Assembly (NCBI GenBank): GCA_030658975.1
Contig: JAUSBL010000040.1
Location: 1 to 64,000 of the forward strand
Direction of reading: 5' to 3'
DNA from: Candidatus Latescibacterota bacterium
GTDB taxonomy: Bacteria > Krumholzibacteriota > Krumholzibacteriia > LZORAL124-64-63
DNA length: 64,000 bases
The notes under the pieces are model-generated. The model searched no databases. It saw only the letters and a list, made by a program, of their open reading frames with translations, and was not told where the DNA came from. The position numbers and the translations under genes were made by a program. Shown one piece after another: positions 2,457 to 61,028 of the stretch (position 1 is its first letter; each line of letters starts with the position of its first letter).

Positions 2457-2511
2457 CGACGCCGCAACTCGCGTGCCGGATCGCCGGCTAACCGTTTCCG
2501 GAGGGTGGACG

Positions 2512-21697: not shown

Positions 21698-21770
21698 AAA
21701 CGGCCCGGCAACGGCCCACAACCGAGATCATCCCCGTCAACGTTTTCCCTCCGCAAGGGAGCGAGGTCCG

Positions 21771-24700: not shown

Positions 24701-25208
24701 CGAGCACTCCGGCGGCGAAGCCTACGTCCGCCTCGACGCCACCGAGGGCAGCCAGGCCCAGTCCGGCAGCAACGGCTTCGGGGGCGCCGACGAGACCAGC
24801 GAGAACCTGGCTACGACGTGGGGCGTCCAGGTCGTGACTCCGGTCGCGCCCCCGATGCCCGAGGGTTCCGGCGAGGTGACGCTGGGCGTGCCGGCGCAGA
24901 CCTTCCTGGCCTCGCGCGGCGAGAGCTTCCGCATCACGTTCACGGCTTCGCCCGGGGCGGAGACGGTGCTGCGCATCATCGACCTGAACGGCCGCCTGGT
25001 GCGCCACCTCTACGACTCGCGCTTCGACGGAGACGCTTCCATCGTGCCCGACACGCCGTCGATCAGGGTGTGGGACGGGCGCAACGAGACCTACGAGCTG
25101 GCCCGGGCCGGGATGTACGTCGTCCACCTCCAGGTGACCGACCCCAGGACAGGCAAGAGGATCGAAAAGACCGCACCGGCCGTGGTGTCCACGCGCCTGA
25201 GCAACTAG
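21771..25208 (+). CDS. Secreted triple lamin-tail-domain protein with FlgD-like C-terminus
   Basis: The 1145-residue protein has a signal peptide (about 1-30, ending HAAA). Three lamin-tail-domain (LTD) units start near residues 31, 416 and 774, with LLISEVLV, LLLTEVCV and LLMTKVCT as first strands. Each is followed by a YLTDA or YVTDA strand and closes with a DETSEN or NETSEN block. Two Ig/FN3-like linkers (WYVTAAG endings) separate them. The last 110 residues look like a FlgD Ig-like domain (LRIIDLNGRLVRHL ... VWDGRNETYELARAGMY), common at the end of secreted FCB proteins. No catalytic domain is seen. LTDs in bacteria are often linked to secreted nucleases or phosphoesterases. Confidence 0.87.
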   Translation: MTSQSRIPRRGAWIAILVATVAFAATVHAAADHLLISEVLVKERPGVTSYGSEYVEITNAGAAAADLAQVYLTDAGNSLNATTFYYNIVTGGGAGGGGSSGDFHARFPAGATLAPGASVVVALRGSAAFQTSHGRLPDYELFEDGIAPDAVPELVEAFPGSIGFGLGNGSTNTVPTGGWLDDVSETLVMYHWDGATDLVADLDYLTWGTSTSLRINKTGVTVDGPDADSIASAYLADTAPGSQQAITTIHAYGDCFQRLSADEGAETATGGNGLTGHDETSENLTATWNVAADQDPTSTGTASPATPLVTAAETSPATPYNTLPVTVTATVLSPSGNAASAVSLNWRTDAGWTTVAATGAGNAWTAQIPALPAGTVVQWYVTAAGTAGGPSALPHGAPFYVRAYTVQQPPDPGDSPPHLLLTEVCVQGSDHEFIEIYNPTDETVELDNYYVTDAVYTTQGYWLLPAGNPSSGTIGGGTFTDFQARFPAGATIEPGEALTLSLAGSDKFQTVWGSAPDFEIREDGGSADAIPNMREVFPGSLQGDETGAWATLTNTAEIVVLYYWDGASNLVTDIDMFMWGSSTSARVDKTGVSVNGSTYAADTPVASQDQFMLTHDILGSFQRLDPGEGTETEAGGNGPLGHNETSENVSGTWSAADGTPGVYEVVELAVTVATLAPQHPQPGEDAVVTAAVTGTAAVTSVTLRYSLDGGAFTDVACTNNGNGTWSGTIPAQADGVEVAWYVTAAGAGGASAVWPQGGAAEAPTYTVEIIVPGYGLAKLLMTKVCTLGTAAEFVEICNPNAFDVPLRNFYLTDAVYYESQAYWNLPNGTPSRATLGGGDFTDFLAKFPDDAVLAAGDTITVSISGSQSFLSAWGVMPYYELFEDDDYEDSVADLREVFPGSINGVTAPTLSNLSDTGTYINGEIVALFFWDGVSDLVTDIDVFIWGEGNSYSVVKTGITIGASTYAAEAGYPDPFMAEHSGGEAYVRLDATEGSQAQSGSNGFGGADETSENLATTWGVQVVTPVAPPMPEGSGEVTLGVPAQTFLASRGESFRITFTASPGAETVLRIIDLNGRLVRHLYDSRFDGDASIVPDTPSIRVWDGRNETYELARAGMYVVHLQVTDPRTGKRIEKTAPAVVSTRLSN

Positions 25209-25223
25209 GGGAGGCTGAGAGGC

Positions 25224-26111
25224 ATGATCCGCAGCGCAACGATCACCGTCGCCTTCGTGCTCGGGCTGGCCGCGTCCACGGCGCAGGCGGCCTTCGAGAA
25301 CGTCGACATCAGCCCGCGGGCGCGGGCCATGGGCGGCGCCGCCGTGGCGGTCGCCGACGACGCCTTCGCGCCCTTCTTCAACCCGGCCGGGATGGCGGGA
25401 CAGACGCGCCCCGCCCTGGGCAACTCCTACGTGAAGCCCTACGGCCTGAGCTTCAACGAGCAGATGTACTTCGGCGGCGTGGCGCCGCTGTCGGCCCGCC
25501 TGGGCGCGCTCGGCTTCGGCTACCGCCGCTTCGCCGTGACGTACCAGGACGTCGACCTCACGACCGAGAGCACGTTCACGCTGGCCCACGGCCTGACCCT
25601 GTACGAGGACCTCCACTCGACGATCAGGTTCGGCACCGCGCTGAACCTCTACGACCTCGAGTACGCCGAGACCGTCGGCGGCGTGGACCCCGGCCACGCC
25701 AGCGTCGTGGGCGCGGACGTGGGCCTGCAGGTCGTCCTGCACGAGCGCACCCGCCTGGGCGTGATGGTCCGCAACCTGAACAACCCCCAGATCGGCCTGG
25801 ACAGCGAAGAGCTCATGCAGCAGCTCACGGGCGGGATCTCCTACATGCCCTACGACGGCGTGACGACCGCCTTCGAGGTGGGCAACACGCTCGACGGCCA
25901 GACCCGCTACCGCGGCGGCGTCGAGTTCGCGGCGCTGGGCGCCCTGCACCTGCGCGGCGGCGTGGCCACCAACCCCTCGCTGGTGACCGGCGGCTTCGGC
26001 TACGGCTACGGCGGGATCACGGTCGACTACGGCTTCTCGACGGGCGGCGGGGTGCTGTCCCCCAGCCACCAGTTCGGGATGACCTTCGCCTGGGGCGGTG
26101 AGGCGCCGTGA
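25224..26111 (+). CDS. PorV/PorQ-like outer-membrane beta-barrel protein
   Basis: A 295-residue protein with a signal peptide (1-22). The ARAMGGAAVAVADDAFAPFFNPAGMAG-type N-terminal region (seen from residue 31; key element MGGAAVA then NPAGMA) is the hallmark of the PorV/UPF0164/FadL-related barrels. Alternating hydrophobic strands run to a terminal aromatic strand (MTFAWGG). PorV acts as a shuttle or anchor subunit in type IX secretion; no other T9SS core gene is visible here. It starts 15 bases after the LTD gene and overlaps the next gene by 4 bases. Confidence 0.85.
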   Translation: MIRSATITVAFVLGLAASTAQAAFENVDISPRARAMGGAAVAVADDAFAPFFNPAGMAGQTRPALGNSYVKPYGLSFNEQMYFGGVAPLSARLGALGFGYRRFAVTYQDVDLTTESTFTLAHGLTLYEDLHSTIRFGTALNLYDLEYAETVGGVDPGHASVVGADVGLQVVLHERTRLGVMVRNLNNPQIGLDSEELMQQLTGGISYMPYDGVTTAFEVGNTLDGQTRYRGGVEFAALGALHLRGGVATNPSLVTGGFGYGYGGITVDYGFSTGGGVLSPSHQFGMTFAWGGEAP

Positions 26112-28675
26112 GGAACACGATCGCAGCGGTGTGGATGGCGGCGCTGATGCTGGCCGCCGTTCCCGCCGCACAGGCTGCGTCGGCGTCCGCCGGCAAGCTC
26201 GACCTCAACCAGGCGTCGCTGGAGCAGATCCGCGGCCTGCCGGTGAGCGAGGAGCTGGCGCGGGCGATCTACGACCACCGGACCTACGTCCGTTTCTTCG
26301 ACAACGTCTACGACCTCATGGAGGTCGCGGGCATGACGCCGGCCGACCTGGCCGCGCTCAAGCCCCTGGTGATGACCCTGCCGCCCGCGCCCACGGACGC
26401 CGGCATGGCCCGCCTGGCCGCCTCCTACGAGCAGGTCAGCGGCTTTTTGAGCCAGGAGGGCGCGAGCGAGGGTCTGGTCGACGAGTACCTCGACCTGATC
26501 CGCGACCCCGTCGACATCAACGGCCTGGACCTGTTCGACCTCATGTCGTTCCAGAACGTGTCGCCGGTGGACGCGAAGGCCATCCTGCGCGCGCGCCAGC
26601 GCCTCGGCGCCTTCGACGACGACCGCCAGCTGCGGCGCAGCGACGGCCTGAGCTACTTCGCCTTCCGCAACATCCGCGACTTCGTCGTCTACGGGGCGCC
26701 GCAGAGCGGCGAGCGGGGCAGCGGGATCCACGGCAACTACCAGCTGCGCTGGTACGACACCCCCTACGTGCTCGACGACAGCGACATCGCCGGCGCGGGC
26801 GGCCTGACCTCCGCCGACGAGATCACGGCCGGCACGCTGCTGACCGAGGGGAACGCCCACCTGACCCAGAAGCTGACGTTGAACCTCGGCGACGGCTTCC
26901 GGGCCGGCGTGCTGACGCACCGCGGCCTGGGCGAGGACTCCTGGCGCGAGACGATGAAGGGCTACTACGGCGTCGACGACCGCCGCTTCGGGGACCTGCG
27001 CCTCAAGCGCCTGTACTTCGGCAACTACCGGGTCGCCTTCGGCCAGGGCCTGATCATGGACAACACGGACTTCATGATGAGCCGCAAGACCGGTTTCGGC
27101 TGGAACAAGCGGCCCATCGGCGTGCGCGGCGACCTCAGCCGCAGCCACGAGTTCGCCCTGACCGGCCTGGCCGCCGAGGCCAGCTACGGCCGCCTGCACG
27201 GCACGATGTTCCTGTCCTGGGACCGCAAGGACGGCATCCTGAACCCTGACGGGACGGTCAACCAGTACATCGTGATGAAGCCGCGGCCGACCGACGACTG
27301 GCTGGGCGACCACCTGGCCTTCGAAGCCGGGCGTTCCTACGCCGTCGGCGCGCTCAAGGACACCCCGACGCTCCTGAAGCGCGACGCCTTCCGCGAGGAC
27401 ATCGTCGGCGGCAACCTGAAGTTCATGCTCGACGACGCCTCCTTCGTGGGCGTGACGGCCTACGAGGCCAAGTACGACCGGGCCTTCGACGCCGACCCGT
27501 CCACCCTGGTCAGCTACTACAGCCTGGTGGACCGCGACCTGCTGGAGGCCCGCGACAGCGAGCTGTGGTCGGGCTACACCAGCGTCGAGCAGGACGCGGC
27601 GGCGGGCACCCGCACCGAGCACAAGTTCCGCCGCGTCTACGGCGCCGAGTTCCAGACGGTCTTCGACAACGTGTCGCTGCAGGGCGAGTACGGCGTGCTG
27701 CAGGACCCGAAGGCCGGCTGGTTCCACGGGAACAGCCCCGACGCCCTGGTCCTGAACGCCTTCGCCCAGTGGGACGACCTGAACCTGCTGGCGCTGTACC
27801 GCGACTACGACCTGGGCTTCGACAACCCCTACAACCGGGCCTTTTCGAACGACAACCGCTACGAGCAGACCCTCCTGGATTCGCCGTTCCGCCTGAACGA
27901 CGACCTCTACTCCTGGCTGGCCGTCAACACGCCGCAGCCGAAGCCCGAGCAGGGCGTCTTCCTGTCCACGCGCTACCGCATCAGCCGCACGCTGATCCTC
28001 AACGGGCTGGAATACGACCAGTGGCAGCGCAAGTCCGACAACGCCGACCTGCAGCGCTACACGGTGCGCCTGGAGTACCAGCCCACGTTCAACCTGCGCT
28101 TCCGCCTGCGGCACCGTTTCAGCAGCCGCAGCGAGACCAACCCCGACGACGTGCGCTGGTTCCGCTCGTGGGAGTCGCGCTTCGAGGTGATCACGCTGCT
28201 GAGCGACATGAACCGCCTGCGCTTCATGTACATGACCAGCAACGTGATGTTCCCGCCGCGGGCGCGCCTCAGCGGCACCCCCGACGGGGGCACGACGCCC
28301 TACGAGGATGACGGCATCCCGGGCGTCGGCACCGCCGGCATGCCGGCCCACGCGTTCCAGGCGATGTACGAGCACCGCCTGTCGCCGGGCGTCTCGCTGA
28401 GCCTCAGCTCCGAGATCTACAACGGCTTCGTCTGGAACTTCGAGGGCAACGAGTTCGTGGTCGTCGACGGCCGGGGTTTCCGCAACTGGGCCAGCATCGA
28501 GAGCCGCGTGTCGGACCGGCTGTTCTTCCAGCTGAAGGCGACGCGGGACCACAACCTCCCGCGGACCTACCTCGACGTGCGCGCCTACCAGGACGCGTAC
28601 GGCGCCGACATCGAGAGCAGCTACGCGCCGCGGGACTGGACGACGTTCCGCATGCAGCTCGACTACACCTTCTGA
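26108..28675 (+). CDS. Outer-membrane barrel with tandem ComEA-type helix-hairpin-helix motifs
   Basis: An 855-residue exported protein from a GTG overlapping the previous stop (GTGA). After a signal peptide (1-23) come two helix-hairpin-helix units. The first, near residues 30-80, has KLDLNQASLEQIRGLP and YDLMEVAGMTPADL. The second, near 137-195, has PVDINGLDLFDLM and DAKAILRARQRLGAF. ComEA-type HhH motifs bind double-stranded DNA outside the inner membrane during transformation. Residues 200-855 are rich in alternating Tyr/Phe/Leu strands and end MQLDYTF, as an outer-membrane barrel does. DNA binding is inferred; similar large proteins exist without known function. Confidence 0.8.
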   Translation: MRNTIAAVWMAALMLAAVPAAQAASASAGKLDLNQASLEQIRGLPVSEELARAIYDHRTYVRFFDNVYDLMEVAGMTPADLAALKPLVMTLPPAPTDAGMARLAASYEQVSGFLSQEGASEGLVDEYLDLIRDPVDINGLDLFDLMSFQNVSPVDAKAILRARQRLGAFDDDRQLRRSDGLSYFAFRNIRDFVVYGAPQSGERGSGIHGNYQLRWYDTPYVLDDSDIAGAGGLTSADEITAGTLLTEGNAHLTQKLTLNLGDGFRAGVLTHRGLGEDSWRETMKGYYGVDDRRFGDLRLKRLYFGNYRVAFGQGLIMDNTDFMMSRKTGFGWNKRPIGVRGDLSRSHEFALTGLAAEASYGRLHGTMFLSWDRKDGILNPDGTVNQYIVMKPRPTDDWLGDHLAFEAGRSYAVGALKDTPTLLKRDAFREDIVGGNLKFMLDDASFVGVTAYEAKYDRAFDADPSTLVSYYSLVDRDLLEARDSELWSGYTSVEQDAAAGTRTEHKFRRVYGAEFQTVFDNVSLQGEYGVLQDPKAGWFHGNSPDALVLNAFAQWDDLNLLALYRDYDLGFDNPYNRAFSNDNRYEQTLLDSPFRLNDDLYSWLAVNTPQPKPEQGVFLSTRYRISRTLILNGLEYDQWQRKSDNADLQRYTVRLEYQPTFNLRFRLRHRFSSRSETNPDDVRWFRSWESRFEVITLLSDMNRLRFMYMTSNVMFPPRARLSGTPDGGTTPYEDDGIPGVGTAGMPAHAFQAMYEHRLSPGVSLSLSSEIYNGFVWNFEGNEFVVVDGRGFRNWASIESRVSDRLFFQLKATRDHNLPRTYLDVRAYQDAYGADIESSYAPRDWTTFRMQLDYTF

Positions 28676-28691
28676 CCGGGAGATCGAGACG

Positions 28692-29981
28692 ATGATGCTC
28701 ACGACCAGGAATCACAGCGCCATCGCGGCGGCGGCCGTGCTGCTCGCGCTGCTGTCGCTCGCCACGCCGCGGCCGGCCGGCGCCGGCCAGGCGCTGAACG
28801 CCGCCTACGGCGACGTCGCGACCTTCCGGCACCCGGAGATCGAAGCGATGTCGGGCACCGGCGCGGCGCTGTTCCGCGGCGGCTTCTCCGCCGTGCTGAA
28901 CCCCGCCATGCTCGGCGAGGCCGCCGGCTGGCGCCTGGATGCGGCCGGCTCGCTGGCCCAGGACCACGAAGACCGCTTCCAGCCCCTCTGGGACAGCTTC
29001 GGCAGCTACATCACCGACACGGCGATCGCCAGCAACCGCAGCCACGACTTCGACTCGGGCTTCGCCCTGTCCGGCCGCGCCCTGCCGCGGCTCGGCGTCG
29101 GGGCCGCCCTGACCAGCCGCTACGACTTCGGCTACGAGTTCCGCGAGGAGGTCCGCGACCCGAGCACCACCGCCGACCCCTACGACCAGATCCTCGAGGA
29201 GCGCTCGGTCGTCGGCGGCGGCAGCCTACGCGACCTGAGCCTGGGGGCGGCCTGGGAGCCCGGCCCGGGCGTCTCGGTGGGCGCCACGGTCCACTACGTC
29301 TTCGGGACCCGCACCCTGGACTTCAACCGGCGCGACGTGCAGGTCCCCGCCGACAGCTACCTGGTCTCCGAGTCGCACGAGGCCGACGGCATGAACGCCA
29401 CCCTGGGCGTGCGCGCGTGCGCGGGCGAGCGCTTCGTGCTGGGCGCGGCCTGGGACACCCCCCTGAAGGTCGAGGGCGACTGGACCACGACCACCACGCT
29501 CGGCGCCGCCGCCCCCGCGGCCGCGGTCGAGGGGGTGTCGGTGCGCTACCCCGGCCGCCTGCGGGCCGGTCTCGCCTACTACCCGCGCTCCGAGCCCCGC
29601 ACCGTCTTCGCCGCCGACGTCGTCTACACCGAGTGGAAGGAGCTGGAAGACAGCCGCGACGCGGCCGCCGGCTCCGGCCTCGAGAACACGATGGACGTGC
29701 AGATCGGCGTGCAGCACACGTTCTACAACGGCGTGCCCCTGCGCTTCGGCTTCCGCCACCTCGACAGTTACGCCGACCGCGAGGCCGGCACGGCGAGCTT
29801 CAACGCGGGCGTGGGCTTCCCCTACGCGGCCGGCATGTTCTCCGTCTCGGCGGAGCTGGGCAAGCTGAGCAGCCGCCAGGAGCACTGGTACCCCTATCCG
29901 GCCGGGTACGCCGTGGCGCCGACGTCGCGCGTGGAGGACAACCGGTTCCGCGTGGGCGCGGGCCTGACCTACGCCTTCTAG
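28692..29981 (+). CDS. FadL/OmpP1-like outer-membrane beta-barrel protein
   Basis: A 429-residue protein with a signal peptide (about 1-32, ending AGAGQ). The ALFRGGFSAVLNPAMLGEAAG segment (key element SAVLNPAML near residue 65) resembles the FadL/PorV amino-terminal hatch region. The rest is amphipathic strands ending VGAGLTYAF, with a C-terminal Phe. FadL relatives pass hydrophobic or aromatic compounds through the outer membrane. It is the fourth gene of the exported-protein operon, 16 bases after the HhH-barrel gene. Substrate unknown. Confidence 0.75.
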   Translation: MMLTTRNHSAIAAAAVLLALLSLATPRPAGAGQALNAAYGDVATFRHPEIEAMSGTGAALFRGGFSAVLNPAMLGEAAGWRLDAAGSLAQDHEDRFQPLWDSFGSYITDTAIASNRSHDFDSGFALSGRALPRLGVGAALTSRYDFGYEFREEVRDPSTTADPYDQILEERSVVGGGSLRDLSLGAAWEPGPGVSVGATVHYVFGTRTLDFNRRDVQVPADSYLVSESHEADGMNATLGVRACAGERFVLGAAWDTPLKVEGDWTTTTTLGAAAPAAAVEGVSVRYPGRLRAGLAYYPRSEPRTVFAADVVYTEWKELEDSRDAAAGSGLENTMDVQIGVQHTFYNGVPLRFGFRHLDSYADREAGTASFNAGVGFPYAAGMFSVSAELGKLSSRQEHWYPYPAGYAVAPTSRVEDNRFRVGAGLTYAF

Positions 29982-45785: not shown

Positions 45786-46748
45786 ATGGAAGCCACCAAG
45801 ACCGCTGTCAAACCCGCCGCCGCGGCCATCGCCGTGCGGGACTTGACGTTCGCCTACGCGGCGGCGCCGGTCCTGCAGGACGTCAGCTTCGGCCTGGAGA
45901 AGCGGGCCGTGGGCCTGCTCGGCCCCAACGGCTCCGGCAAGACCACGCTGCTGCGGGCCCTGCTCGGCCACCTGCCCCTGAAGCGGGGTTCCGTCACGGT
46001 CATGGGCTGCGACATGGCGCGCGACCCCCGCGGCGCGCGCCGCCGGATCGGCTGGATGCCCGAACGCGGGGGCATCCTGCCCGGCATGAGCGGCGTCGCC
46101 ATGGTGGCCTACCTGGGCGAGCTCGGCGGCATGCCGCCGACCGACGCCCTGCAGCGGGCCCACGAGGTCCTGAACTACGTCGGGCTCGCCGACGAGCGCT
46201 ACCGGGAGGCCGACACCTACAGCCAGGGCATGCGCCAGCGGCTGAAGCTGGCCCAGGCCCTGGTCCACGACCCCGACTGGCTGCTGCTGGACGAACCGAC
46301 CAGCGGCCTGGACCCCCGCGGCCGCGTCAGCATGCTCGAGCTCATGCGCGACCTGGCGGCGAACAAGGGCTTCGGGATCATCCTCTCGACCCACCTGCTG
46401 GCCGACGTGCGCGAGGTCTGCCAGGAGATCCTGGTCCTGCGCCAGGGCCGGCTGCTGAGCCACGGCCGTGTCGAAGCGGCGCCGCCCGGGGCCACCGCGC
46501 AGTTCCTGGTCGAGGGCTTCGGCGACGAGCCCGCGTTCCAGGCCGCGCTGCGGGAGGCGGGGCTCGAGGCCGTGCGCCGCGAGCGGCTCCTGGAAATCAC
46601 CGCCCCGGCCGACGCCGGCGCCCGCCTGGTGCTCGCGGCCGCTTCGGCCAGCGGCTTCGCGCTGCGCCGGCTGCAGCCGCGCCGCGAGACGCTCGAGGAC
46701 CTGTTCTACCAGCTCGTCGACGACGCCGACGACGCGCGCAAGGACTGA
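45786..46748 (+). CDS. ABC transporter ATP-binding protein (first pair)
   Basis: A 320-residue ABC ATPase: Walker A GPNGSGKTTLL (near 53), the ABC signature YSQGMRQRLK (near 145), Walker B WLLLDEPTSGLDP (near 164) and switch His in STHLLAD. The C-terminal 100 residues form an accessory domain like that of ABC-2 exporters. It heads a run of four genes, ATPase-permease-ATPase-permease, and is divergent from the PLP gene. Substrate is unknown. ATG 45786 chosen after AGGATTCAAG; an earlier frame has no motif support. Confidence 0.92.
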   Translation: MEATKTAVKPAAAAIAVRDLTFAYAAAPVLQDVSFGLEKRAVGLLGPNGSGKTTLLRALLGHLPLKRGSVTVMGCDMARDPRGARRRIGWMPERGGILPGMSGVAMVAYLGELGGMPPTDALQRAHEVLNYVGLADERYREADTYSQGMRQRLKLAQALVHDPDWLLLDEPTSGLDPRGRVSMLELMRDLAANKGFGIILSTHLLADVREVCQEILVLRQGRLLSHGRVEAAPPGATAQFLVEGFGDEPAFQAALREAGLEAVRRERLLEITAPADAGARLVLAAASASGFALRRLQPRRETLEDLFYQLVDDADDARKD

Positions 46749-46749
46749 C

Positions 46750-47601
46750 ATGCCCGTCTACGAACGCGGATACCGTCCCTGGGAGCACAGCGGCCGCCGC
46801 GCGCGCGCGCCCTGGTGGACGATCGCGCGGCGCGGCATCGCCGAGCCGCTGAAGAGCCGCCGCCTGCTGTTCCTGCTGGCGGTCGCCTGGGTGCCGGCCA
46901 TCGTCAAGGGAGGCATCCTCTACTTCACCTTCCAGATGGGCGAGCTGTCGCGCCTGATCGGCGGCAAGTGGACCGACATCGGCCCGCGCGGTTTCCTGAC
47001 CTACCTGGGCTGGCAGTCGCCGTTCGTGCTGATCCTGCTGGCGATCGTCGGCTCGGGCCTGATCAGCCGCGACCGCCGCGAGAACGGCCTCGCGCTGTAC
47101 CTGGCGCGGCCCCTGAACGTGCGCGACTACGTCCTGGGCAAGGGCGCCGTGATCATGTTCTACTACTTCGCCGTGACGCTGCTGCCCGTCTGGGCGCTGT
47201 GCCTCTTCGGCTACCTGGTGACCAGCGGCGCGACCGGCATGCAGATGCTCCTGCTGATCCCCCTGCAGGCGCTGGCCTACTGCCTGGTGACCGGCGCCGG
47301 TTTCACGCTGGTGCTGCTGGCCCTGTCCTCGGTCGGCCAGCGCACGGTGTTCGTCGCCCTGTGGTGGGTGCTGCTCTACGCCGGCACCGACGGGCTCGCG
47401 CAGATCATGTCGCTGTTCAGCCCCGGCCTGCAGATCCTCAACTTCCCCGGCCAGTTCCTGAACGCGGGCATCGTCTTCTTCGGCGGCGAACCGCTGTGCG
47501 AGGTGCCGCCGGTGTTGAGCCTGCTGGTCGTGCTGGCCTATGCGGCCCTGGGCGTCTGGGTGCTGCGGCGGCGGATCAAGCCCGTGGAGGTGGTGGCGTG
47601 A
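46750..47601 (+). CDS. ABC-2-type transporter permease (first pair)
   Basis: A 283-residue membrane protein with six hydrophobic segments, starting MPVYERGYRPWEHSGRRA. SGLISRDRRENGLALYLARPL is the ABC-2 permease coupling motif region (key element LISRDRRENGLALYLARPL). It starts 1 base after the upstream ATPase gene and overlaps the next ATPase gene by 4 bases. It would form an exporter with the flanking ATPases. Substrate not known. Confidence 0.85.
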   Translation: MPVYERGYRPWEHSGRRARAPWWTIARRGIAEPLKSRRLLFLLAVAWVPAIVKGGILYFTFQMGELSRLIGGKWTDIGPRGFLTYLGWQSPFVLILLAIVGSGLISRDRRENGLALYLARPLNVRDYVLGKGAVIMFYYFAVTLLPVWALCLFGYLVTSGATGMQMLLLIPLQALAYCLVTGAGFTLVLLALSSVGQRTVFVALWWVLLYAGTDGLAQIMSLFSPGLQILNFPGQFLNAGIVFFGGEPLCEVPPVLSLLVVLAYAALGVWVLRRRIKPVEVVA

Positions 47602-48545
47602 ACGTCGTACCCGCGAGCGGCGCCGCCGCCGTCCTGCAGGCCGAACGGGTCAGCAAGTGGTTCGGCGAGGTCATCGCCGTCAACGACTGCACGCTGGCCC
47701 TCGGGCCCGGCGTGACCGGGCTGCTGGGCCTCAACGGCGCCGGCAAGACGACCCTGTTCAAGATGCTGTCGGGCCTGATCACGCCCAGCCAGGGGGAGGT
47801 GCTCATCCGCGGGCACCGCCTGCGCCGCGACGTGGGCCTGTTCCGCCGCGTGGGCTTCTGCCCCGAGAGCGACGCGCTGTTCGACTGGCTGACCGGCCGC
47901 GAGTTCATCCGGCTGATGGTGCGCCTGATGGGGTACGACGGCACGGAAGTGGTCGCGCGCGCCGAGCGGGCCCTGGAGCTCGTGCACCTCGGCGACGCCG
48001 CCGACCGCCGCATCGGCGCCTACTCCAAGGGCATGCGCCAGAAGATCAAGATGGCCCAGGCCCTGGCCCACGACCCCGAGATCGTCTTCCTCGACGAGCC
48101 GCTCAACGGCATGGACCCGGTGTCGCGGCGGGAGATCGTCGCGCTGGTGCAGCGCCTGGGCGATGCGGGACGCTGCGTGGTGGTGTCGAGCCACATCCTG
48201 CCCGAGATCGAGACCATGACCCGCTCGATCGTGCTGATCCACCGCGGCAAGCTCATGGCCGAGGGCGACATCACCGAGATCCGCGACGCGATCCACGACC
48301 GCCCCACCATCGTGGCGCTCACCTCGACCGAGCCGCGGCGCCTGGCGTCGTCGCTGGCCGGGCGCGACCTGGTGCGCGGGGTCGAGATCGACGAGTTCGG
48401 CCGCGTTGTGGCGCGCACCGACCACGCCGTGAACTTCTACCGCGAGCTGCCGGGCTGGCTGCTGGCGGAGTCCCTGCCCGTCGACGAGATCGAGACCCTC
48501 GACGACAACCTGCAGGCGGTCTTCGACTATCTGGTGGGAGGGTGA
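47598..48545 (+). CDS. ABC transporter ATP-binding protein (second pair)
   Basis: A 315-residue ABC ATPase from a GTG overlapping the permease stop. Walker A GLNGAGKTTLF (near 49), signature YSKGMRQKIK (near 142), Walker B EIVFLDEPLNGMDP (near 160) and SSHILPE with the switch His are clear. The C-terminal 90 residues include FDYLVGG at the end. It is distinct from the first ATPase (near 45786), which suggests a heteromeric exporter or two exporters in one operon. Confidence 0.92.
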   Translation: MNVVPASGAAAVLQAERVSKWFGEVIAVNDCTLALGPGVTGLLGLNGAGKTTLFKMLSGLITPSQGEVLIRGHRLRRDVGLFRRVGFCPESDALFDWLTGREFIRLMVRLMGYDGTEVVARAERALELVHLGDAADRRIGAYSKGMRQKIKMAQALAHDPEIVFLDEPLNGMDPVSRREIVALVQRLGDAGRCVVVSSHILPEIETMTRSIVLIHRGKLMAEGDITEIRDAIHDRPTIVALTSTEPRRLASSLAGRDLVRGVEIDEFGRVVARTDHAVNFYRELPGWLLAESLPVDEIETLDDNLQAVFDYLVGG

Positions 48546-48546
48546 G

Positions 48547-49416
48547 ATGAGCGTCGCCGCACCGCCCGCCGCCGCGGGCGCCGTCCCGGCCGGCGCCGGG
48601 AACGACCGCCCGCTGGGCCTGGCGGTCTCGTCCTTCTGGATCGCGTTCTTCTCCTTCCGCGAGATGCTGCGCCGCCGGCGCATCCTCTCGGTGGGGCTGC
48701 TGATGCTGCTGCCGGTGGTGCTGGCGGTGGCGTGGCGGGCCCTGGACCGCGAGGGCGCGATCCCGCCGGACCTGCTGCTGGCCAACCTCAGCGGCATGGT
48801 CTACATCCACTTCATGGTCGCGGTCGTCTCGCTGGCCTTCGGCCTGTCGGCCATCGGGGAGAGCGCCGACGAGGGCACGATCATCTACTACTGGACGCGC
48901 CCCCTGCGCCGCGAGGCCATCTACCTGGGGCGCCTGGTGGCGGCCCAGGCGGTGGCCGGCCTGCTGGTGACGGGTTCGCTGGTCGCTTCGTTCCTGGTGA
49001 TGACGGTCGGCAACTTCGGGATCATCTCGCTGGACTTCCTGAAGCTCTACGTCAGCACCTGCCTGGTCATCCTCTACGGCGCGTTCGTCTACACGGCCAT
49101 CTTCGCCGCCATCGGCACCGGGCTGAAGAAGCCCATGCTGCCGGCTATCCTGTTCGCGTTCGGCTGGGAGTCGATCGGGGGCAACGCGCCGCTGCGGCTG
49201 CAGGAGCTGACGGTGGTCTTCCACCTGCGCAACCTGCTGCACAACAACGCAGCCTCGACCGGCAGCATGCCCAACCTGCTGCAGGAGCTCAAGACCATGC
49301 TCCTGCACGAGGTGCCGCCGTCCGCGGGGCACTCCTTCCTGGTGCTGCTGGCGGTGGCGGTCGTCGCCTTCGCGCTGGGGTGCTGGCTGCTGCGGCGCAA
49401 GGAGATCTTCCGCTGA
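48547..49416 (+). CDS. ABC-2-type transporter permease (second pair)
   Basis: A 289-residue membrane protein with about six hydrophobic segments after a polar Ala-rich N-terminus. The SADEGTIIYYWTRPLRREAIYLGRL stretch matches ABC-2 permeases (key element EGTIIYYWTRPL). It follows the second ATPase gene by 1 base, with GGGAGGG upstream. Together the four genes form one operon. Substrate unknown. Confidence 0.82.
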   Translation: MSVAAPPAAAGAVPAGAGNDRPLGLAVSSFWIAFFSFREMLRRRRILSVGLLMLLPVVLAVAWRALDREGAIPPDLLLANLSGMVYIHFMVAVVSLAFGLSAIGESADEGTIIYYWTRPLRREAIYLGRLVAAQAVAGLLVTGSLVASFLVMTVGNFGIISLDFLKLYVSTCLVILYGAFVYTAIFAAIGTGLKKPMLPAILFAFGWESIGGNAPLRLQELTVVFHLRNLLHNNAASTGSMPNLLQELKTMLLHEVPPSAGHSFLVLLAVAVVAFALGCWLLRRKEIFR

Positions 49417-49425
49417 GCGGCCGGT

Positions 49426-49454
49426 TTGACAGCGGCCGCGACCGGTGCTAGCGT
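49426..49454 (+). promoter_or_regulatory. Promoter of the M16 protease pair
   Basis: TTGACA (49426-49431) and TAGCGT (49449-49454) are exactly 17 bases apart, just after the permease stop. The start of the protease gene is 128 bases further on. Confidence 0.5.
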
Positions 49455-49581
49455 GCGGGGGGTTTCCCCGCCGCGATCCACCCGCAACGACAGTGTGCAT
49501 GCCCGGCGCCGCCGGGCGAGTTCGAGGCTGCCCCGCCGGCGCGCCAGCGTCCCGCCGCCGGGGTCAACAGTTGGAGGCGTC

Positions 49582-51093
49582 ATGTCCGCGATCCGCAAGA
49601 CCCTGGTCACCGCCGCCGTCCTGGCCCTCGCGCTGGGCGCGGTGGCGGCGTCGGCTGAGGGCTACCAGGACCTCAAGGAGCAGGTGAGGGAGTTCACCCT
49701 GCCCAACGGCATCCACTTCATCGTGCTCGAGCGCCACGACGTCCCGGTGTTCTCGTTCAACACCTATGTGAGCGTCGGCAGCGCCCAGGAAGTCACGGGC
49801 ATCACGGGCATCGCCCACATCCTGGAACACATGGCGTTCAAGGGGACCGCCGAGATCGGCACCACCGACGCCAAGAAGGAAGCCCAGGCGATGAAGGCCG
49901 AAGACGCGGCCTTCGCCGCGCTGAAGGCCGAGCGCCTGAAGGGCGACCGCGCCGACCCGGCCAGGCTGGCCGAGCTGGAACAGGCCTTCACCGACGCCAA
50001 GGACGCGGCCCGCGCCTTCGTCGTCAGCAACGAGTTCGGGCAGATCGTCGAGAACAACGGCGGCCGCGGCATGAACGCCGGCACCGGCACCGACGATACG
50101 AGCTACATGTACAGCCTCCCGAGCAACCGGCTGGAGCTCTGGGCCTACCTCGAGGGCACGCGCATGTCGCGCCCCGTGCTGCGCGAGTTCTACACCGAGA
50201 AGGACGGTCCGGTGACCGAGGAGCGCCGCATGCGCACCGAGAACAGCCCGATCGGCATGCTCGTGGAGCAGTTCCAGAACCTGGCCTTCATGGCCCACCC
50301 GTACCACCACTCGACCATCGGCTGGATGACGGACCTCAACACGATCACCCGCGAGGACTGCGAGACCTTCTACCGGACCCACTACGTGGGCCGCAACATG
50401 ACGGTGGCCGTGGTCGGCGACGTCGACTTCGACGAGGTCAAGCGGCTGGCCGGCAAGTACTTCACCGGCGTGTCGTCCGCCGAGCCGCCGGTGATCGAGA
50501 CCTTCGACGCCCCGCAGAAGGGCGAGCGCCGCATGGTGATCGAGGACGAGTCGCAGCCCTTCTACATCTGCGGCTACCACATCGGGAACTGGGCCCACGC
50601 CGACGCCGCGGTCTACGACGCCATCGCCGACATCCTCGGCCAGGGTCGCACCAGCCGCCTTTACGAGCGCCTGGTCAAGCAGGACAAGTCGGCGGTCCAG
50701 GCCTTCAGCTTCGCCGGCTTCCCCGGCGACAAGTACCCGACCCTGCTGGCCGTGCTGGGGATGCCCGCCAAGGACGTCACCGCCGAGCAGCTCGAAGCCG
50801 CGGTGCTCGAGGAGATCCAGAAGCTCGTGGACGGCGGCGTGACGGAGCAGGAGCTGGCCGGCGTGAAGCGCCGCGCCCGCGCCAACTTCGTGCGCTCGCT
50901 GGAGGGCAACATGGGCCTGGCCGCCCAGCTGTCCGAGTACCAGGGCAAGCAGGGCGACTGGCGCCTGATGTTCGAGCAGCTCGCGGCCATCGATGCGGTG
51001 ACCGTAGAGGACGTGCAACGCGTCGCCGGCGAGGTCTTCGTCCCCAACAACCGCACGGTTGCCTTCATCAAGACGGTCGAGGCCGCCAACTGA
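49582..51093 (+). CDS. M16 zinc protease, catalytic partner
   Basis: A 503-residue exported protease with a signal peptide (1-25). The inverted zinc motif HILEH lies at residues 79-83, and a helical insert (about 92-150) follows it, as in processing-peptidase-like M16 proteins with NAGTGTDDTSYMY. It degrades or processes peptides in the periplasm. The next gene encodes a second M16 protein lacking the zinc motif, so the pair probably forms a heterodimer. GGAGG precedes the ATG. Confidence 0.93.
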   Translation: MSAIRKTLVTAAVLALALGAVAASAEGYQDLKEQVREFTLPNGIHFIVLERHDVPVFSFNTYVSVGSAQEVTGITGIAHILEHMAFKGTAEIGTTDAKKEAQAMKAEDAAFAALKAERLKGDRADPARLAELEQAFTDAKDAARAFVVSNEFGQIVENNGGRGMNAGTGTDDTSYMYSLPSNRLELWAYLEGTRMSRPVLREFYTEKDGPVTEERRMRTENSPIGMLVEQFQNLAFMAHPYHHSTIGWMTDLNTITREDCETFYRTHYVGRNMTVAVVGDVDFDEVKRLAGKYFTGVSSAEPPVIETFDAPQKGERRMVIEDESQPFYICGYHIGNWAHADAAVYDAIADILGQGRTSRLYERLVKQDKSAVQAFSFAGFPGDKYPTLLAVLGMPAKDVTAEQLEAAVLEEIQKLVDGGVTEQELAGVKRRARANFVRSLEGNMGLAAQLSEYQGKQGDWRLMFEQLAAIDAVTVEDVQRVAGEVFVPNNRTVAFIKTVEAAN

Positions 51094-51131
51094 CGCGACC
51101 ACCGCGTCGCGCCATGGAAAGGAGACTGGTC

Positions 51132-53267
51132 ATGAAGCGAATCCTGAAGACGGCGGCCCCGGTCCTGCTGCTGCTCGCGGCGGCGACCCTGGCCTCGCCC
51201 GCGCTCGCGGCCCGCAGCAAGCCGTGGGAAAAGATCAAGACCCCGGCCCTGGGCGAGATCCGGCTGCCGGACTACCAGCGCGTGCAACTGGACAACGGCA
51301 TGGTGCTCTACCTGGCCGAGGACCACGAGCTGCCGATGATCGAACTTTCGGCCACCATCCGCGCCGGCCAGATCTACGAGCCCGAGGGCAAGACGGGTCT
51401 GGCCGCGCTCACCGGCGAGGTCCTGCGCTCCGGCGGCACCGCCAGCTGGTCCGGCGACGAGATCGACGAGAAGATGGAGTCGCTCGGCGCCATGGTCGAG
51501 ACCTACGTCGGCGAGTACACCGCCGGCGCCTACCTGTCGGCCCTGACCGAGGACGCCGACACGGCCCTGGCCGTCCTGGCCGAGATCCTGCGCAGCCCGC
51601 GCTTCGCCGAGGACAAGCTCGACCTGGCCAAGACCCAGCACAAGGCCGGCATCGCGCGGCGCAACGACGAACCGATGAGCATCGCGCGCCGCGAGTTCTC
51701 CCGCGTGATCCTGGGCCCGGACCACCCCCTGGCCCGCAACGAGGAGTACGACACCCTTGCCGCGATCGCGCGTCAGGACCTGGCCGATTTCCACGCCGAC
51801 TGGTTCGGCCCCGACCGCACCTACCTGGTCGTGATCGGCGACTTCGACGCCGCCGCGATGACCGGGAAGATCGAGGCCGCCTTCGCCGACTGGCCGGCCG
51901 CGCGGCGGCCCCTGCCCGCGGATCCCGTCGCGCCCGACCTGCCCCGCACCGTCAACGTCGCCTCCAAGGACGACCTCACCCAGTCGACGGTGATCCTGGG
52001 CCACAAGGGCATCCGCAACGATGACCCGCACTACGCCGGCATCGAGGTCGCCAACCGGATCCTGGGCGGCGGCTTCGCCTCGCGCCTGTTCAACGAAGTG
52101 CGCAGCGCCCGCGGCCTGGCCTACTCCACGGGCAGCGCCTCGGGCACCGGCTGGCGGCAGCCCGGCGTGTTCGTGGCCTTCGCCGGCACCAAGAGCGAAT
52201 CCACCGAGCAGGCCGCGGCCGTCATGATCGAGCAGATCGAGAAGATGACGCGCGAGCCGGTGTCCGCCGAGGAACTGCGCACCGCGGTCGACGGCATCCT
52301 CAACAGCGACGTGTTCAACTACGACTCCAAGCGCGAGGTCCTGGACCGCATGGTGCTGTTCGAAATGAACGGCTATCCCGCGGACTTCCTGACCGGCTAC
52401 CGGGCCGCGGTCCAGGCCATGACCGCCGAGCAGGTGCTCGAGGCCAGCCGGGCGGTCTGGAAGCCGGAGCGCCTGTCGGTGCTGGCGGTCGGCAACCCGG
52501 CCGACTTCGACGGCGACCTGAGCCGCTTCGGCGCCGTGAACACGATCGACATCACGATCCCCGAGCCCAAGCTGACCCTGGAGATCCCCGCCGCCACGCC
52601 GGAGTCCCTGGCCGCCGGCCAGAAGCTCCTGGACCGCGCCGCCGCGGCCGTGGGCGGCAGGAAGCTCGCGGACATGAAGGGCTTCGCCACCAAGCAGACG
52701 CTCGCGGCCGAGATCCAGGGCATGTCCCTGAACATCACCATGGAGACCACGATCGTGCTGCCGGACCGCCTGAAGCTGATCCAGAAACTGCCCTTCGGCG
52801 AGTCCACGCAGGTCCTCGACGGCGAGAAGGGCTGGGTCCAGAGCCCCATGGGCGTCCAGGACATCGAGGGCGCCGACGTCGCCAAGATGCGCGACCAGAT
52901 CCAGGGCGACATGCTGATGCTGCTGCGCGACCACTCCGGCCGCACCTGCCAGGCCCTGCCGGCCGAGGAACTGGACGGCAAGCTCTGCGAGCGGGTCTAC
53001 ATCACCGACGAGAACGGCGACTACACGCTGATGTTCCTCGACGCCGCGACCGGCCTGCCCGTGATGGAGCAGAGCAAGGGCGAGGCGCCGATGACCGGCG
53101 AGCCGGTCACCCAGAAGGTCAAGTACGACAGCTACAAGGATTTCGGCGGGGTGCAGCGCCCGGCGACGTTCACGATCCTGTTCGACGACGAGGTCTTCGC
53201 CACGGGGCAGACCACGTCGTTCACGCTGAATCCGACGGTCGCGGCGGGGTTCTTCGCCAAGCCGTAG
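51132..53267 (+). CDS. M16 peptidase-like non-catalytic partner with LolA-like C-terminal domain
   Basis: A 711-residue exported protein with a signal peptide (about 1-27). Two M16 halves occupy about 38-460 (QLDNGMVLYLAEDHELP; SRLFNEVRSARGLAYS). At the HxxEH position it reads GLAALTGEVLR, so the zinc site is missing. The last 220 residues resemble an outer-membrane lipoprotein-sorting (LolA-like) beta sheet (VLDGEKGWVQSPMG ... GVQRPATF). ATG 51132 is preferred since AAGGAGA falls between it and an earlier ATG at 51114. The C-terminal domain is unusual for M16. Confidence 0.9.
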   Translation: MKRILKTAAPVLLLLAAATLASPALAARSKPWEKIKTPALGEIRLPDYQRVQLDNGMVLYLAEDHELPMIELSATIRAGQIYEPEGKTGLAALTGEVLRSGGTASWSGDEIDEKMESLGAMVETYVGEYTAGAYLSALTEDADTALAVLAEILRSPRFAEDKLDLAKTQHKAGIARRNDEPMSIARREFSRVILGPDHPLARNEEYDTLAAIARQDLADFHADWFGPDRTYLVVIGDFDAAAMTGKIEAAFADWPAARRPLPADPVAPDLPRTVNVASKDDLTQSTVILGHKGIRNDDPHYAGIEVANRILGGGFASRLFNEVRSARGLAYSTGSASGTGWRQPGVFVAFAGTKSESTEQAAAVMIEQIEKMTREPVSAEELRTAVDGILNSDVFNYDSKREVLDRMVLFEMNGYPADFLTGYRAAVQAMTAEQVLEASRAVWKPERLSVLAVGNPADFDGDLSRFGAVNTIDITIPEPKLTLEIPAATPESLAAGQKLLDRAAAAVGGRKLADMKGFATKQTLAAEIQGMSLNITMETTIVLPDRLKLIQKLPFGESTQVLDGEKGWVQSPMGVQDIEGADVAKMRDQIQGDMLMLLRDHSGRTCQALPAEELDGKLCERVYITDENGDYTLMFLDAATGLPVMEQSKGEAPMTGEPVTQKVKYDSYKDFGGVQRPATFTILFDDEVFATGQTTSFTLNPTVAAGFFAKP

Positions 53268-56445: not shown

Positions 56446-57705
56446 GTGCTGGACCGCAAATTCCTGCGCGAGAACCGGGAGCTCGTGACCGCCGCCGTCG
56501 CCGCGAAGCGCGACACCGTGGACGTCGGAGCGTACTACAGCGCCGACGGGGAGCGCCGGGCCTGCCTGCAGGAGTTCGAGGAGCTGCAGGCCGAGGCCAA
56601 CCGCGCCAACAAGGCCATCGCCGCCGGTCGCAAATCCGGCGCCGACACCGGCGCGGACATCGCGCGGATGAAGGAGATCTCGGTCCGCCTCAAGGACCTC
56701 CGGCAGCAGGCCGACGCCGCCGAGGCCGCCGCCGAGACGCTCTACCTGCGGCTGCCCAACGTGCCGCACGCGAGCGTGCGCACCGGCGGCGAGCAGGACA
56801 ACACGGTGGTGCGCACCTGGGGCGAGATCCCCGCGCCCGCCTTCGCCGTGAAGCCCCACTGGGACCTCGGCGCCGAACTCGGCATCATGGACCTCGAGGC
56901 CGCGGCGCGCATGTCCGGCTCGGGCTTCACGCTGCTCACCGGCCAGGGCGCCCGCCTGGAGCGGGCCCTCATCAACTTCATGCTCGACGTGCACCTCGAG
57001 CAGGGCTACGTCGAGGTCAACGCGCCCTACCTCGTCAACCGCGACGCGATGACCGGCACCGGCCAACTGCCCAAGATGGAAGAGGACATGTACGCCTGCC
57101 CGCTCGACGGGCTCTACCTGATCCCGACGGCCGAGGTTTCGGTCACCAACATGCACCGCCAGTCGACGCTGGACTGGGAGCGCCTGCCCCTGAAGTACGT
57201 GGCCTTCTCGCCCTGCTTCCGCCGCGAGGCCGGCGCGGCGGGCAAGGACACCCGCGGCCTGCTGCGCGTCCACCAGTTCCACAAGGTGGAGATGGTGCAG
57301 TTCGTGCGGCCCGGGACGTCCTACGAGACCCTGGAGACCCTGACCGACGACGCCGAGGAGATCCTGCGCCGGCTGGGGTTGCCCTACCGCGTCGTGGCCC
57401 TCGCCTCGGGCGACCTCAGCTTCGCGGCGGCCAAGTGCTACGACCTGGAGGCGTGGGCCGCCGGCGTCGGCAAGTGGCTCGAGGTCTCGAGCTGCAGCAA
57501 CTTCGAGGATTTCCAGGCCCGCCGCGCCGGGATCCGCGCCAAGGGTCCCGACGGCGCCGTCTTCGTCCACACCCTCAACGGCTCCGGCCTCGCCCTGCCC
57601 CGCGTGCTGGTGGCGATCCTCGAGAACTACCAGACGCCCGACGGGCGCGTCCGCGTGCCCGAGGTCCTGCGCCCCTACCTGGGCGGACTCGAACACCTCG
57701 GGTAA
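56446..57705 (+). CDS. serS: Serine--tRNA ligase
   Basis: A 419-residue class II synthetase. The N-terminal 110 residues form the tRNA-binding coiled coil ([13 protein letters not shown] ... EAAAETLYL). Motif 2 is seen in [25 protein letters not shown] (key FRREAG), and HKVEMV follows. Motif 3 is in [17 protein letters not shown]. It charges tRNA(Ser) and tRNA(Sec). The GTG at 56446 has GGGGGAGG upstream. It is followed by the PorY-like kinase after 9 bases. Confidence 0.96.
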
Positions 57706-57714
57706 GGAGACGGC

Positions 57715-58965
57715 ATGGCCTGGTGGCCCGGGACATTGCGGTTCCTGCGCAGGCGCCGGGTCTTCACCGCCTACGTGCTGGCCGGCAGCCTGGCGATCCT
57801 GGTGATCGTCGGCTGGGGGGCGTACCGCGTCGCCGGCCGCGTCGAGCAGCAGGCGCAGCTCTCGACCTGGCTGTTGTCGCACATCGCCAGCGTCGACCTC
57901 GTGCAGGGGCAGGGGGGAGGGCTGCAGGAAGTCCTGCTGCGCTCGCGCGAGCTGGACGTGCCCTTCATCGTGACCGACAACCAGGGCCGCCCGCTGCTGT
58001 GGAACTCGCCGGTCGTGGGCATCCCGATGCCGGATTCGCTGGAGACGCTGGCGCGCGTGAACCCCGCCGGCGGCAACGGCGGCGACATCGACCGGATCCT
58101 GAGGCTGGTGAAGGAGTACGATTCCCGCAACGAGCCGTTCGCCATCACGGACCCGCGCACCGGCCAGCGCGTGCTGACGCTGCACTACGGCGCCTCGGCC
58201 CTCAGCCGCCAGATCCGCTGGCTGCCCTACGCCGAGCTGGCGCTGCTGGCGGTCTTCTTCCTGCTGATCGTCTGGGCCCTGAGCCTGCAGCGCGAGGGCC
58301 ACGAGCAGAAGCTCTTCGCCGGCATGGCCAAGGAGACGGCCCACCAGCTGGGCACGCCCATCACCTCGATCATGGGCTGGCTGGAGATCCTGCGCGACCG
58401 CCGCCCCGACGACGTCGTCGAGGAGCTCGGCCGCGACGTGGCCCGCCTGGGCAAGGTGTCCGAGCGCTTCAGCCAGATCGGCTCGCGGCCGCAGCTCGCG
58501 GACGCCGACCTCGCGGAGACCGCCGCGACGACCGTCGCCTACTTCCGCCGCCGGCTGCCCCACCTGGGCGGCCGCGTCGAGATCACGGTCGCGGACCGCC
58601 ACACCCGCGGCTGCCGCTTCAACCGGGACCTGCTGGAGTGGGTGCTCGAGAACCTGATCAAGAACGGCATCGACGCGCTGAAGGACGGCGTGGGCGAGAT
58701 CGCGCTGTCCCTGGACGACGGTCCCGACGGCACGATCCTGCTGCGGGTCCGGGACACCGGCTGCGGCATCGCGCCCCAGCACCGGAACCGCATCTTCGAG
58801 GCCGGGTATACGACCAAGAGCCGCGGCTGGGGGATGGGGCTGGCGCTGGTCAGGCGCATCGTCGTGCAGTACCACAGCGGACGCATCCAGATCGAGGAGA
58901 CGGGCGCGGGAGGGACCACCTTCCTGATCACGCTGCCGGGAGAGGAGCCGTTTGACGCCGTATAG
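57715..58965 (+). CDS. PorY-like membrane sensor histidine kinase
   Basis: A 416-residue kinase. TM1 is at about 18-38, a periplasmic sensor at about 40-168, and TM2 at about 170-191. The H-box is KETAHQLGTPITS with phospho-acceptor H210, an uncommon HQLGTP variant. The N-box NLIKNGIDALKDG, DTGCGI and GWGMGLALVRRIV complete the ATPase. Its last 14 bases overlap the PorX-like gene, which makes it the obvious cognate kinase. It detects an envelope signal I cannot name. Confidence 0.9.
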   Translation: MAWWPGTLRFLRRRRVFTAYVLAGSLAILVIVGWGAYRVAGRVEQQAQLSTWLLSHIASVDLVQGQGGGLQEVLLRSRELDVPFIVTDNQGRPLLWNSPVVGIPMPDSLETLARVNPAGGNGGDIDRILRLVKEYDSRNEPFAITDPRTGQRVLTLHYGASALSRQIRWLPYAELALLAVFFLLIVWALSLQREGHEQKLFAGMAKETAHQLGTPITSIMGWLEILRDRRPDDVVEELGRDVARLGKVSERFSQIGSRPQLADADLAETAATTVAYFRRRLPHLGGRVEITVADRHTRGCRFNRDLLEWVLENLIKNGIDALKDGVGEIALSLDDGPDGTILLRVRDTGCGIAPQHRNRIFEAGYTTKSRGWGMGLALVRRIVVQYHSGRIQIEETGAGGTTFLITLPGEEPFDAV

Positions 58966-60508
58966 GATCCTGTGGGTCGACGACCAGATCGAGGAGCTGC
59001 GCTCCCACGTCGTGTACCTCACCGAGAAGGGCTACCAGGTGGACGGCGTCAACAACGGGCGCGACGCCGTCGCCATGCTGGCCACAGAGCGCTACGACGC
59101 GGTGCTGCTGGACGAGATGATGCCGGGCATGGGCGGCCTCGAGACGCTGGTCGAGATCAAGAAGGTGCGCGAGAACGTCCCGGTGATCATGATCACCAAG
59201 AGCGAGGAGGAGGACCTGATGCGGCGGGCCATCGGCAGCCGCATCGACGACTACCTGGTCAAGCCGGTCTCCCCGCTGCAGATCGTCTCGGCGCTCAAGC
59301 GCCTGCTCGAGGGCCGCCGCATCCTGGGTGAGCAGGTCAACCGCGACTACCTCGCCCACTACGGCACGGTCGGCGGCCGCCTGGCCCGCGCCAAGACGCC
59401 CGGCGACTGGGAGGCGCTCTACGCCGACATGGTGGGCTGGGCGCTGGACCTCTACGCCTACAGCGACCACGGCCTGCTGCAGGTCCACGACGAGCAGCTC
59501 GCCGAGTGCAACCGCGCCTTCGCGCGCTTCGTCCGCGAAAACTACTCCCGGTGGGTCAACGGCTCCGCGGACGCGCCGCTGACGTGCCCCGGCCTTTTCC
59601 GCACCTGGGTGGCGCCGGAGATCGAGACCGGACGGCAGGTGTATTGGATCGTCATCGACTGCATGCGGCTGGACCAGTGGCGCCACATCGAGGACCTGCT
59701 GGAGCCCTACTACCACCTCGAACGCCGGCAGTACTGGTCGATCCTGCCCTCGGCGACGCCGTTCGCGCGCAACGCCCTGTTCGCGGGTCTCTACCCCCGC
59801 GAGATCGCCGAGCGCTACCCGGAATGGTGGCGCGGCTCCAGCCAGCAGCAGCATTCCAAGAACGCCCACGAGGAGGAGCTGCTCGGCGAACAGCTGCGCC
59901 GCCTGGGCTCCGCCGCCGCCACGAGCTACAAGTACTACAAGGTGTTCGACGCCCGCGACAGCGACGATCTCCGCAAGCACTTGGGTTCGCTCGACGGGGT
60001 GCGCCTGGTGGCCGCCGTCTACAACTTCCTGGACATCATGGCGCACGGCCGCTCCCAGTCCGCGATCCTCAAGGAGCTGGCGCCGGACGTGGCGGCCTTC
60101 CGTTCCCTGATGCGCAGCTGGTTCGAACACTCCACGCTCTACGAGGTGCTGAAGCTGCTGTCGCGCAAGAAAGTCACGGTCTTCATCACCACCGACCACG
60201 GCTCGACGTGCTGCACGCGGGCCACGACGGTCAAGGGCAACCGCGACACGAGCTCCAACGTCCGCTACAAGTACGGGGACAACCTCGGCGTGGACGAGAA
60301 GGCGGTCTTCCTGATCAAGGATCCGGAGAGCTGCATGCTGCCGCGCCAGTCGACCATCGAGAACTACGCGGTCACGACCGAGAACGACTACCTTGTCTAC
60401 CCGACCAACTTCCACGAGTACGAGCGCCTGTACCGCGGCAGCTTCCAGCACGGCGGCATCAGCCTCGAGGAACTGATCATCCCGTTCGCGGTCCTGCGTC
60501 CGCGCTAG
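58952..60508 (+). CDS. porX: PorX-type response regulator fused to PglZ phosphatase domain
   Basis: A 518-residue protein. The receiver domain (1-125) has the acidic pair D10/D11, phospho-acceptor D54 in LLDEMMPGMGG and lysine in LVKPVSP. From about 210 on is a PglZ/alkaline-phosphatase-like domain: WIVIDCMRLDQW, ILPSATPFARNALFAGLYP with the Thr nucleophile, and TTDHGSTCC. Porphyromonas PorX has the same design and regulates type IX secretion. The start is a TTG with AGAGGAG upstream, overlapping the kinase gene. T9SS core genes are not in the window. Confidence 0.92.
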   Translation: MTPYRILWVDDQIEELRSHVVYLTEKGYQVDGVNNGRDAVAMLATERYDAVLLDEMMPGMGGLETLVEIKKVRENVPVIMITKSEEEDLMRRAIGSRIDDYLVKPVSPLQIVSALKRLLEGRRILGEQVNRDYLAHYGTVGGRLARAKTPGDWEALYADMVGWALDLYAYSDHGLLQVHDEQLAECNRAFARFVRENYSRWVNGSADAPLTCPGLFRTWVAPEIETGRQVYWIVIDCMRLDQWRHIEDLLEPYYHLERRQYWSILPSATPFARNALFAGLYPREIAERYPEWWRGSSQQQHSKNAHEEELLGEQLRRLGSAAATSYKYYKVFDARDSDDLRKHLGSLDGVRLVAAVYNFLDIMAHGRSQSAILKELAPDVAAFRSLMRSWFEHSTLYEVLKLLSRKKVTVFITTDHGSTCCTRATTVKGNRDTSSNVRYKYGDNLGVDEKAVFLIKDPESCMLPRQSTIENYAVTTENDYLVYPTNFHEYERLYRGSFQHGGISLEELIIPFAVLRPR

Positions 60509-60518: not shown

Positions 60519-61028
60519 ATGGAGCACGCCCTGCCGGCTCCCGGGGACTTTCCGGTCGCGGTGCGGACCGGCTCGCCGGCGGCGTCCGCCGCGCTGGGCG
60601 AGCGGGCGGCCGGCCTGCTGCGCGGCGGCGAGACGCTGCTGCTCTGGGGCCCGCTCGGCGCCGGCAAGACGACCTTCGCGCAGGGGCTCTGCCGCGGCCT
60701 CGGCATCCGGGACGAGGTGACCTCGCCCACCTTCACCCTGGCCAACCGGCTCGAGGGCCGCCTCGTCGTCCACCACCTCGACTGCTACCGCCTCGGTCCC
60801 GGCGACGACCTGCACGACGTCGGCCTCGACGCCATCCTCGACGAGGTCGAATCCGGCGCCGCCGTCCTGCTCGCCGAATGGCCCGACCCGCTGGTGCCCT
60901 GGCTCCGCGACCGGATCGAGCTGCTGGCCCTGCCGGGCGCAGAGCCGCAGACGCGCGTCTGGCGGCTGCGCGGCGTGCCGGAACTGCCCGGCCCCTGGGC
61001 CGCGCTGGCGACGGGAGGGGACGGCTGA
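60519..61028 (+). CDS. tsaE: tRNA t6A biosynthesis ATPase TsaE
   Basis: A 169-residue P-loop protein. LLLWGPLGAGKTTFAQGL (Walker A near 44-51), EVTSPTFTLANRL and VVHHLDCYRL (near 84, HLDxYRL) are the family signature. It supports the TsaD/TsaB complex that makes threonylcarbamoyladenosine in ANN-decoding tRNAs. It follows porX by 10 bases and overlaps tsaB by one base. Confidence 0.95.
   Translation: MEHALPAPGDFPVAVRTGSPAASAALGERAAGLLRGGETLLLWGPLGAGKTTFAQGLCRGLGIRDEVTSPTFTLANRLEGRLVVHHLDCYRLGPGDDLHDVGLDAILDEVESGAAVLLAEWPDPLVPWLRDRIELLALPGAEPQTRVWRLRGVPELPGPWAALATGGDG

Follow-up and report, generated by a model that had tools for sequence, protein, structure and literature searches.

The question raised by this locus is whether a PorY/PorX-type gene pair in a genome assigned to the Krumholzibacteriota regulates a type IX secretion system (T9SS) in a new lineage or whether its PorX regulates something else, these being the two possibilities left by an earlier note on this DNA. 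In Porphyromonas gingivalis, PorY phosphorylates PorX which, with the sigma factor SigP, controls the T9SS genes (PMC4800418). PorX binds the motor protein PorL (PMC5005315), with GldL being bound in Flavobacterium johnsoniae (PMC10951265), and the in vivo role of its PglZ domain, a zinc phosphodiesterase, is unsettled (PMC11320123). An earlier survey placed the T9SS in Bacteroidetes only (PMC4793230), with reviews suggesting that it may exist in other FCB phyla (PMC11285876, PMC11205867).

Within the window (the whole stretch of DNA that was analysed, 64,000 nucleotides in length), the pair is part of the following gene array:

56446..57705, forward strand: serS, seryl-tRNA synthetase (TIGR00414, 474 bits against a cut-off of 302), which opens the conserved array
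57715..58965, forward strand: porY-like sensor histidine kinase, 416 aa (HATPase_c, 82 bits; HisKA; kinase motifs; AlphaFold model)
58952..60508, forward strand: porX, 518 aa (NF052313, 630 bits; Response_reg and PglZ; PDB 7pv7, 8ted, 8p6f)
60519..61028, forward strand: tsaE, ATPase of tRNA t6A synthesis (TsaE, 97 bits)

The kinase and PorX frames are each complete and overlap by 14 bp, as the earlier note had described, with porX starting at a TTG codon within the overlap. Ribosome-binding-like sites were found for both genes, and both have a codon-position GC profile like that of real genes (strong third-position GC, in a sequence of 71% GC). The serS-porY-porX-tsaE order is kept in nearly all Krumholzibacteriota loci and is also present in loci of the Zixibacteria, Latescibacterota and Eisenbacteria, with tsaE following porX in 80 of the 80 named loci, a pattern which spans the FCB group.

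The product of porX exceeded the cut-off of the PorX family model (300 bits) over positions 2–513 of 513, and the solved PorX structures matched it over the full length (E about 1e-130). It consists of a receiver domain (6–115), a helical linker and a PglZ phosphodiesterase domain (229–518). Mapped by the F. johnsoniae numbering of PMC10951265, the phospho-site is D54, the nucleophile T269 and the zinc ligands D236, D361, H365, D415, H416 and H500. The phospho-site and every zinc-site residue were found to be invariant among 108 PorX proteins, the sole varying site being the position of F. johnsoniae E12, which is a Q here. Absence of the Thr/Asp/His active-site residues had been named as grounds for rejecting the PorX assignment, and all of them are present. 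The three-part architecture, phospho-site, nucleophile and zinc ligands are shared with PorX of P. gingivalis and F. johnsoniae (residues: PMC10951265), from which the gene described here differs in being co-operonic with the kinase. Judged by its sequence, the protein is a genuine response regulator of the PorX family, and the same chemistry would be expected of it because these residues are kept. The PglZ fold is common to PorX and the BREX-3 protein; membership of BREX was rejected, the score against the BREX-3 PglZ model being 81 bits where its cut-off is 250, and the neighbouring genes include none of BREX type.

None of PorK, PorL, PorM, PorN or PorT was recognised among the scanned part of the window proteins, in agreement with the earlier note, which had in addition claimed a PorV-like barrel and a FlgD-like C-terminal domain elsewhere in the window. 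The barrel corresponds to the following feature:

25224..26111, forward strand: candidate PorV/PorQ-like outer-membrane barrel, 295 aa (NF033709, 46 bits, E 4e-12)

The match to the PorV/PorQ profile is weak, the assignment being kept as a candidate only because the score lies below the family cut-off of 90 bits. The FlgD-like domain could not be recovered, as a motif scan found none and none of the genome's 92 matches to the tail profile lies on the contig of the window. The barrel gene falls within a run of envelope genes (21669–29981) which also encodes a protein of 1179 aa that contains two lamin-tail domains and matches CBM56, one of 855 aa that begins with a ComEA-type helix-hairpin-helix and probably includes a barrel, and a BamG-like barrel scoring below the BamG cut-off. 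The window also holds a gene for a 679-aa protein in which a CsgG domain is fused to a C-terminal OmpA domain (2293–4332), and genes for ABC-2 membrane proteins followed by two adjacent M16-family peptidases (46468–53267).

The earlier description of the pair as lying outside an evident type IX context is true inside the window; it does not extend to the genome, a metagenome-assembled genome (MAG) of 92% completeness, which was searched for SprA, the Por-secretion tail, GldL, GldM and GldN. SprA was found on contig 8 (459.5 bits, cut-off 200) and was matched by the solved SprA structure (E 3e-31), and each of the 13 Krumholzibacteriota genomes examined for it encodes SprA. The Por-secretion tail gave 92 matches, of which 78 were over the cut-off, whereas only 1 of 14 control genomes had a tail over it. 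Single tail domains score low (best 38.5 bits), and the domain was C-terminal in the eight of eight tail proteins that were read.

In the same genome GldM was not found by two profiles, including that for the GldM fourth domain (PF12080). It was also not detected in 12 other Krumholzibacteriota (0/13 with this genome) or in three Ignavibacteria, and GldN was detected in none of 17 genomes, including 13 Krumholzibacteriota and three Ignavibacteria, these absences relying on Bacteroidetes-trained profiles which a very divergent motor would escape. The GldL profile gave chance-level matches only, below its cut-off, and matched no positive-control genome. A full T9SS in the genome had been expected to make the pair ordinary, and this outcome is only half borne out, with SprA and cargo tails present and GldM and GldN undetectable. 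It is considered likely that PorY and PorX form one operon controlling an SprA-type (type IX) secretion system that is without the known GldM and GldN, and probably GldL, motor/ring proteins. This reading is based on the gene structure, the residues, the co-occurrence of PorX with SprA and the lack of detectable GldM and GldN.

It could instead be argued that the genome holds a complete, ordinary T9SS with motor and ring genes too divergent for the profiles or lying in assembly gaps, which would leave only a new phylum record. The divergence of SprA here (459 bits, where SprA of Bacteroidia scores about 2,800), the incompleteness of the MAG and a GldL search with no positive control all favour this argument. 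It is nevertheless judged unlikely, as GldM was found in 7 of 7 control genomes and both GldM and GldN are missing from 13/13 Krumholzibacteriota genomes, three of which are single-contig. Both are missing as well from the three Ignavibacteria, which carry SprA and PorX and in which SprA scores about 1,000 bits.

Of the 57 genomes of the phylum that are at least 85% complete, 55 have a PorX above the cut-off, and given this distribution, together with SprA and tails in the genome, PorX would not appear to have been diverted to an unrelated function. Among named loci, the two nearest encode PorX proteins that are 94–96% identical to the one described here, the next ones being mostly from Candidatus Krumholzibacteriota. 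Loci titled Fibrobacter, Gemmatimonas and Gemmatimonadales (L036, L037, L056) were set aside as likely mislabelled MAGs because their PorX groups inside the Krumholzibacteriota. A split PorX in a single-contig Krumholzibacteriota genome (G054), with pieces 600 kb apart (L194, 5538–7013; L195, 4526–5240), was considered as a natural separation of receiver and PglZ domains and was rejected as a scaffolding misjoin because the halves share an identical stretch and carry runs of N.

The relationship between PorX, the channel and the motor was further investigated in 61 genomes of the phylum around an Ignavibacterium (Bacteroidota). PorX and SprA occurred together in 47 of these and neither occurred in 13, with PorX alone in a single genome; the Fisher p-value for this co-occurrence (2e-12) is only a guide because related genomes are not independent. 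GldN was matched in just 14 of the 61, and PorX tracks SprA rather than GldN. In a PorX tree a single clade holds the proteins of all 14 genomes with GldN and is nested within those of genomes lacking GldN, the direction of the tree being inferred because it was rooted at the midpoint only. These results suggest that PorX is tied to the channel and not to the motor. In addition, 21 named Ignavibacteria-type loci (among L080–L113) have the gene order sprA-porX-tsaE, with sprA immediately upstream, and sprA also immediately precedes porX in 10 of the 61 sampled genomes, where the gap between the two matches is often a few tens of bases. On this arrangement, sprA-porX is a candidate operon of translocon and regulator in lineages in which GldN is undetectable (L080–L113, and also genomes G082, G094 and G114).

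The same data bear on the second possibility raised in the earlier note, namely that PorX regulates a process unrelated to type IX secretion, such as a second-messenger or phage-response pathway, by way of its phosphodiesterase domain. In the window no further gene is of certain type IX identity, porX adjoins serS and tsaE rather than sprA in the Krumholzibacteriota lineage, SprA is retained in two Krumholzibacteriota genomes in which PorX was not detected, and PglZ domains are known in BREX phage defence (the match here being far under that family's cut-off). Set against these points, the near-perfect co-occurrence of PorX and SprA, the sprA-porX adjacency in Ignavibacteria and the PorX equivalog score across the full length leave this possibility very improbable, and it is not supported. 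The first possibility, that of T9SS regulation in a new lineage, is the one upheld: this Krumholzibacteriota genome has SprA and many cargo-tail proteins, and PorX and SprA occur together in the genomes sampled.

The kinase carries HisKA and HATPase_c domains, with membrane helices predicted near residues 15–40 and 170–190. An H-box histidine (His210, in KETAHQLGTP), N-box residues N313 and N317 and G-boxes (DTGCG and GWGMGLAL) were identified, with H210, N313, N317, D347 and the G-box glycines, G373 among them, invariant in 40 relatives. In an AlphaFold model (mean pLDDT 79), a long helix at the N-terminus is followed by a small predicted extracytoplasmic alpha/beta domain (about 62–165), a second membrane helix and a kinase core of normal form. 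A fold search with the kinase returned generic histidine kinases only and no specific sensor type. PorY of P. gingivalis (PGN_2001) likewise has two membrane helices, HisKA and HATPase domains and a similar length (PMC4800418), although porY and porX are unlinked 'orphans' in that organism (PMC4800418) and an overlapping pair here. The predicted architecture and the operon thus agree with PorY, a PorX-phosphorylating membrane histidine kinase, and the kinase is taken to be PorY-type, its orthology to Porphyromonas PorY being inferred from operon context. That it is an unrelated sensor kinase placed upstream of porX by chance, as might be argued from the general kinase models and no PorY-specific profile among the matches listed and from Ignavibacteria loci in which porX has no adjacent kinase of this type, is scarcely credible given the 14-bp overlap and the retention of the pair across Krumholzibacteriota, Zixibacteria and Latescibacterota.

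For the preferred reading, an operon controlling SprA-based secretion, the following mechanism is proposed. The kinase would sense an envelope signal through its small extracytoplasmic domain, autophosphorylate on His210 and pass the phosphate to Asp54 of PorX. Phosphorylated PorX would then presumably dimerise, with its zinc phosphodiesterase (PglZ) domain becoming active, and would set the expression of sprA and of cargo genes as its putative targets, probably via a sigma factor by analogy with Porphyromonas. A contact between PorX and a motor is not expected because GldM and GldN are undetectable, and the pair therefore most likely regulates the SprA translocon, either its synthesis or its state. 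The reported contact with PorL or GldL (PMC5005315, PMC10951265) is thus a point of difference, with no known partner detected here; as such a contact would lack a target in this genome, it would be a later addition.

A partial T9SS has been described from the Bacteroidetes 'Incertae sedis', for which the survey PMC7323717 lists Sov, PorV, PorU, PorX, PorY and SigP and does not list PorK–N. As in the genome described here, Sov/SprA, PorX and PorY thus occur in that list without PorK, PorL, PorM and PorN, and a motorless gene set is therefore already implicit in print. That survey however covered Bacteroidetes alone, and its relevant passages do not take up operation without a motor, whereas the present case concerns another phylum together with Ignavibacteria in which sprA and porX are linked. 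No report of a motorless set in Krumholzibacteriota or of sprA-porX linkage was found in the open-access literature searched.

The results extend the type IX translocon, together with its regulator, to the Krumholzibacteriota and suggest that the translocon-regulator pair is older than the motor. More tentatively, it is possible that in the FCB group outside the Bacteroidia SprA-based secretion has always lacked the GldLM rotary motor and uses another energy source, in which case PorX would have regulated the SprA translocon ancestrally and gained its motor contact later, in the Bacteroidia. PorX has been described as a hub for both the transcription and the motor of the T9SS, and lineages with SprA, cargo and PorX and without detectable GldM and GldN let these two roles be separated. 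They also raise the question of what energises SprA export when the only known motor is missing.
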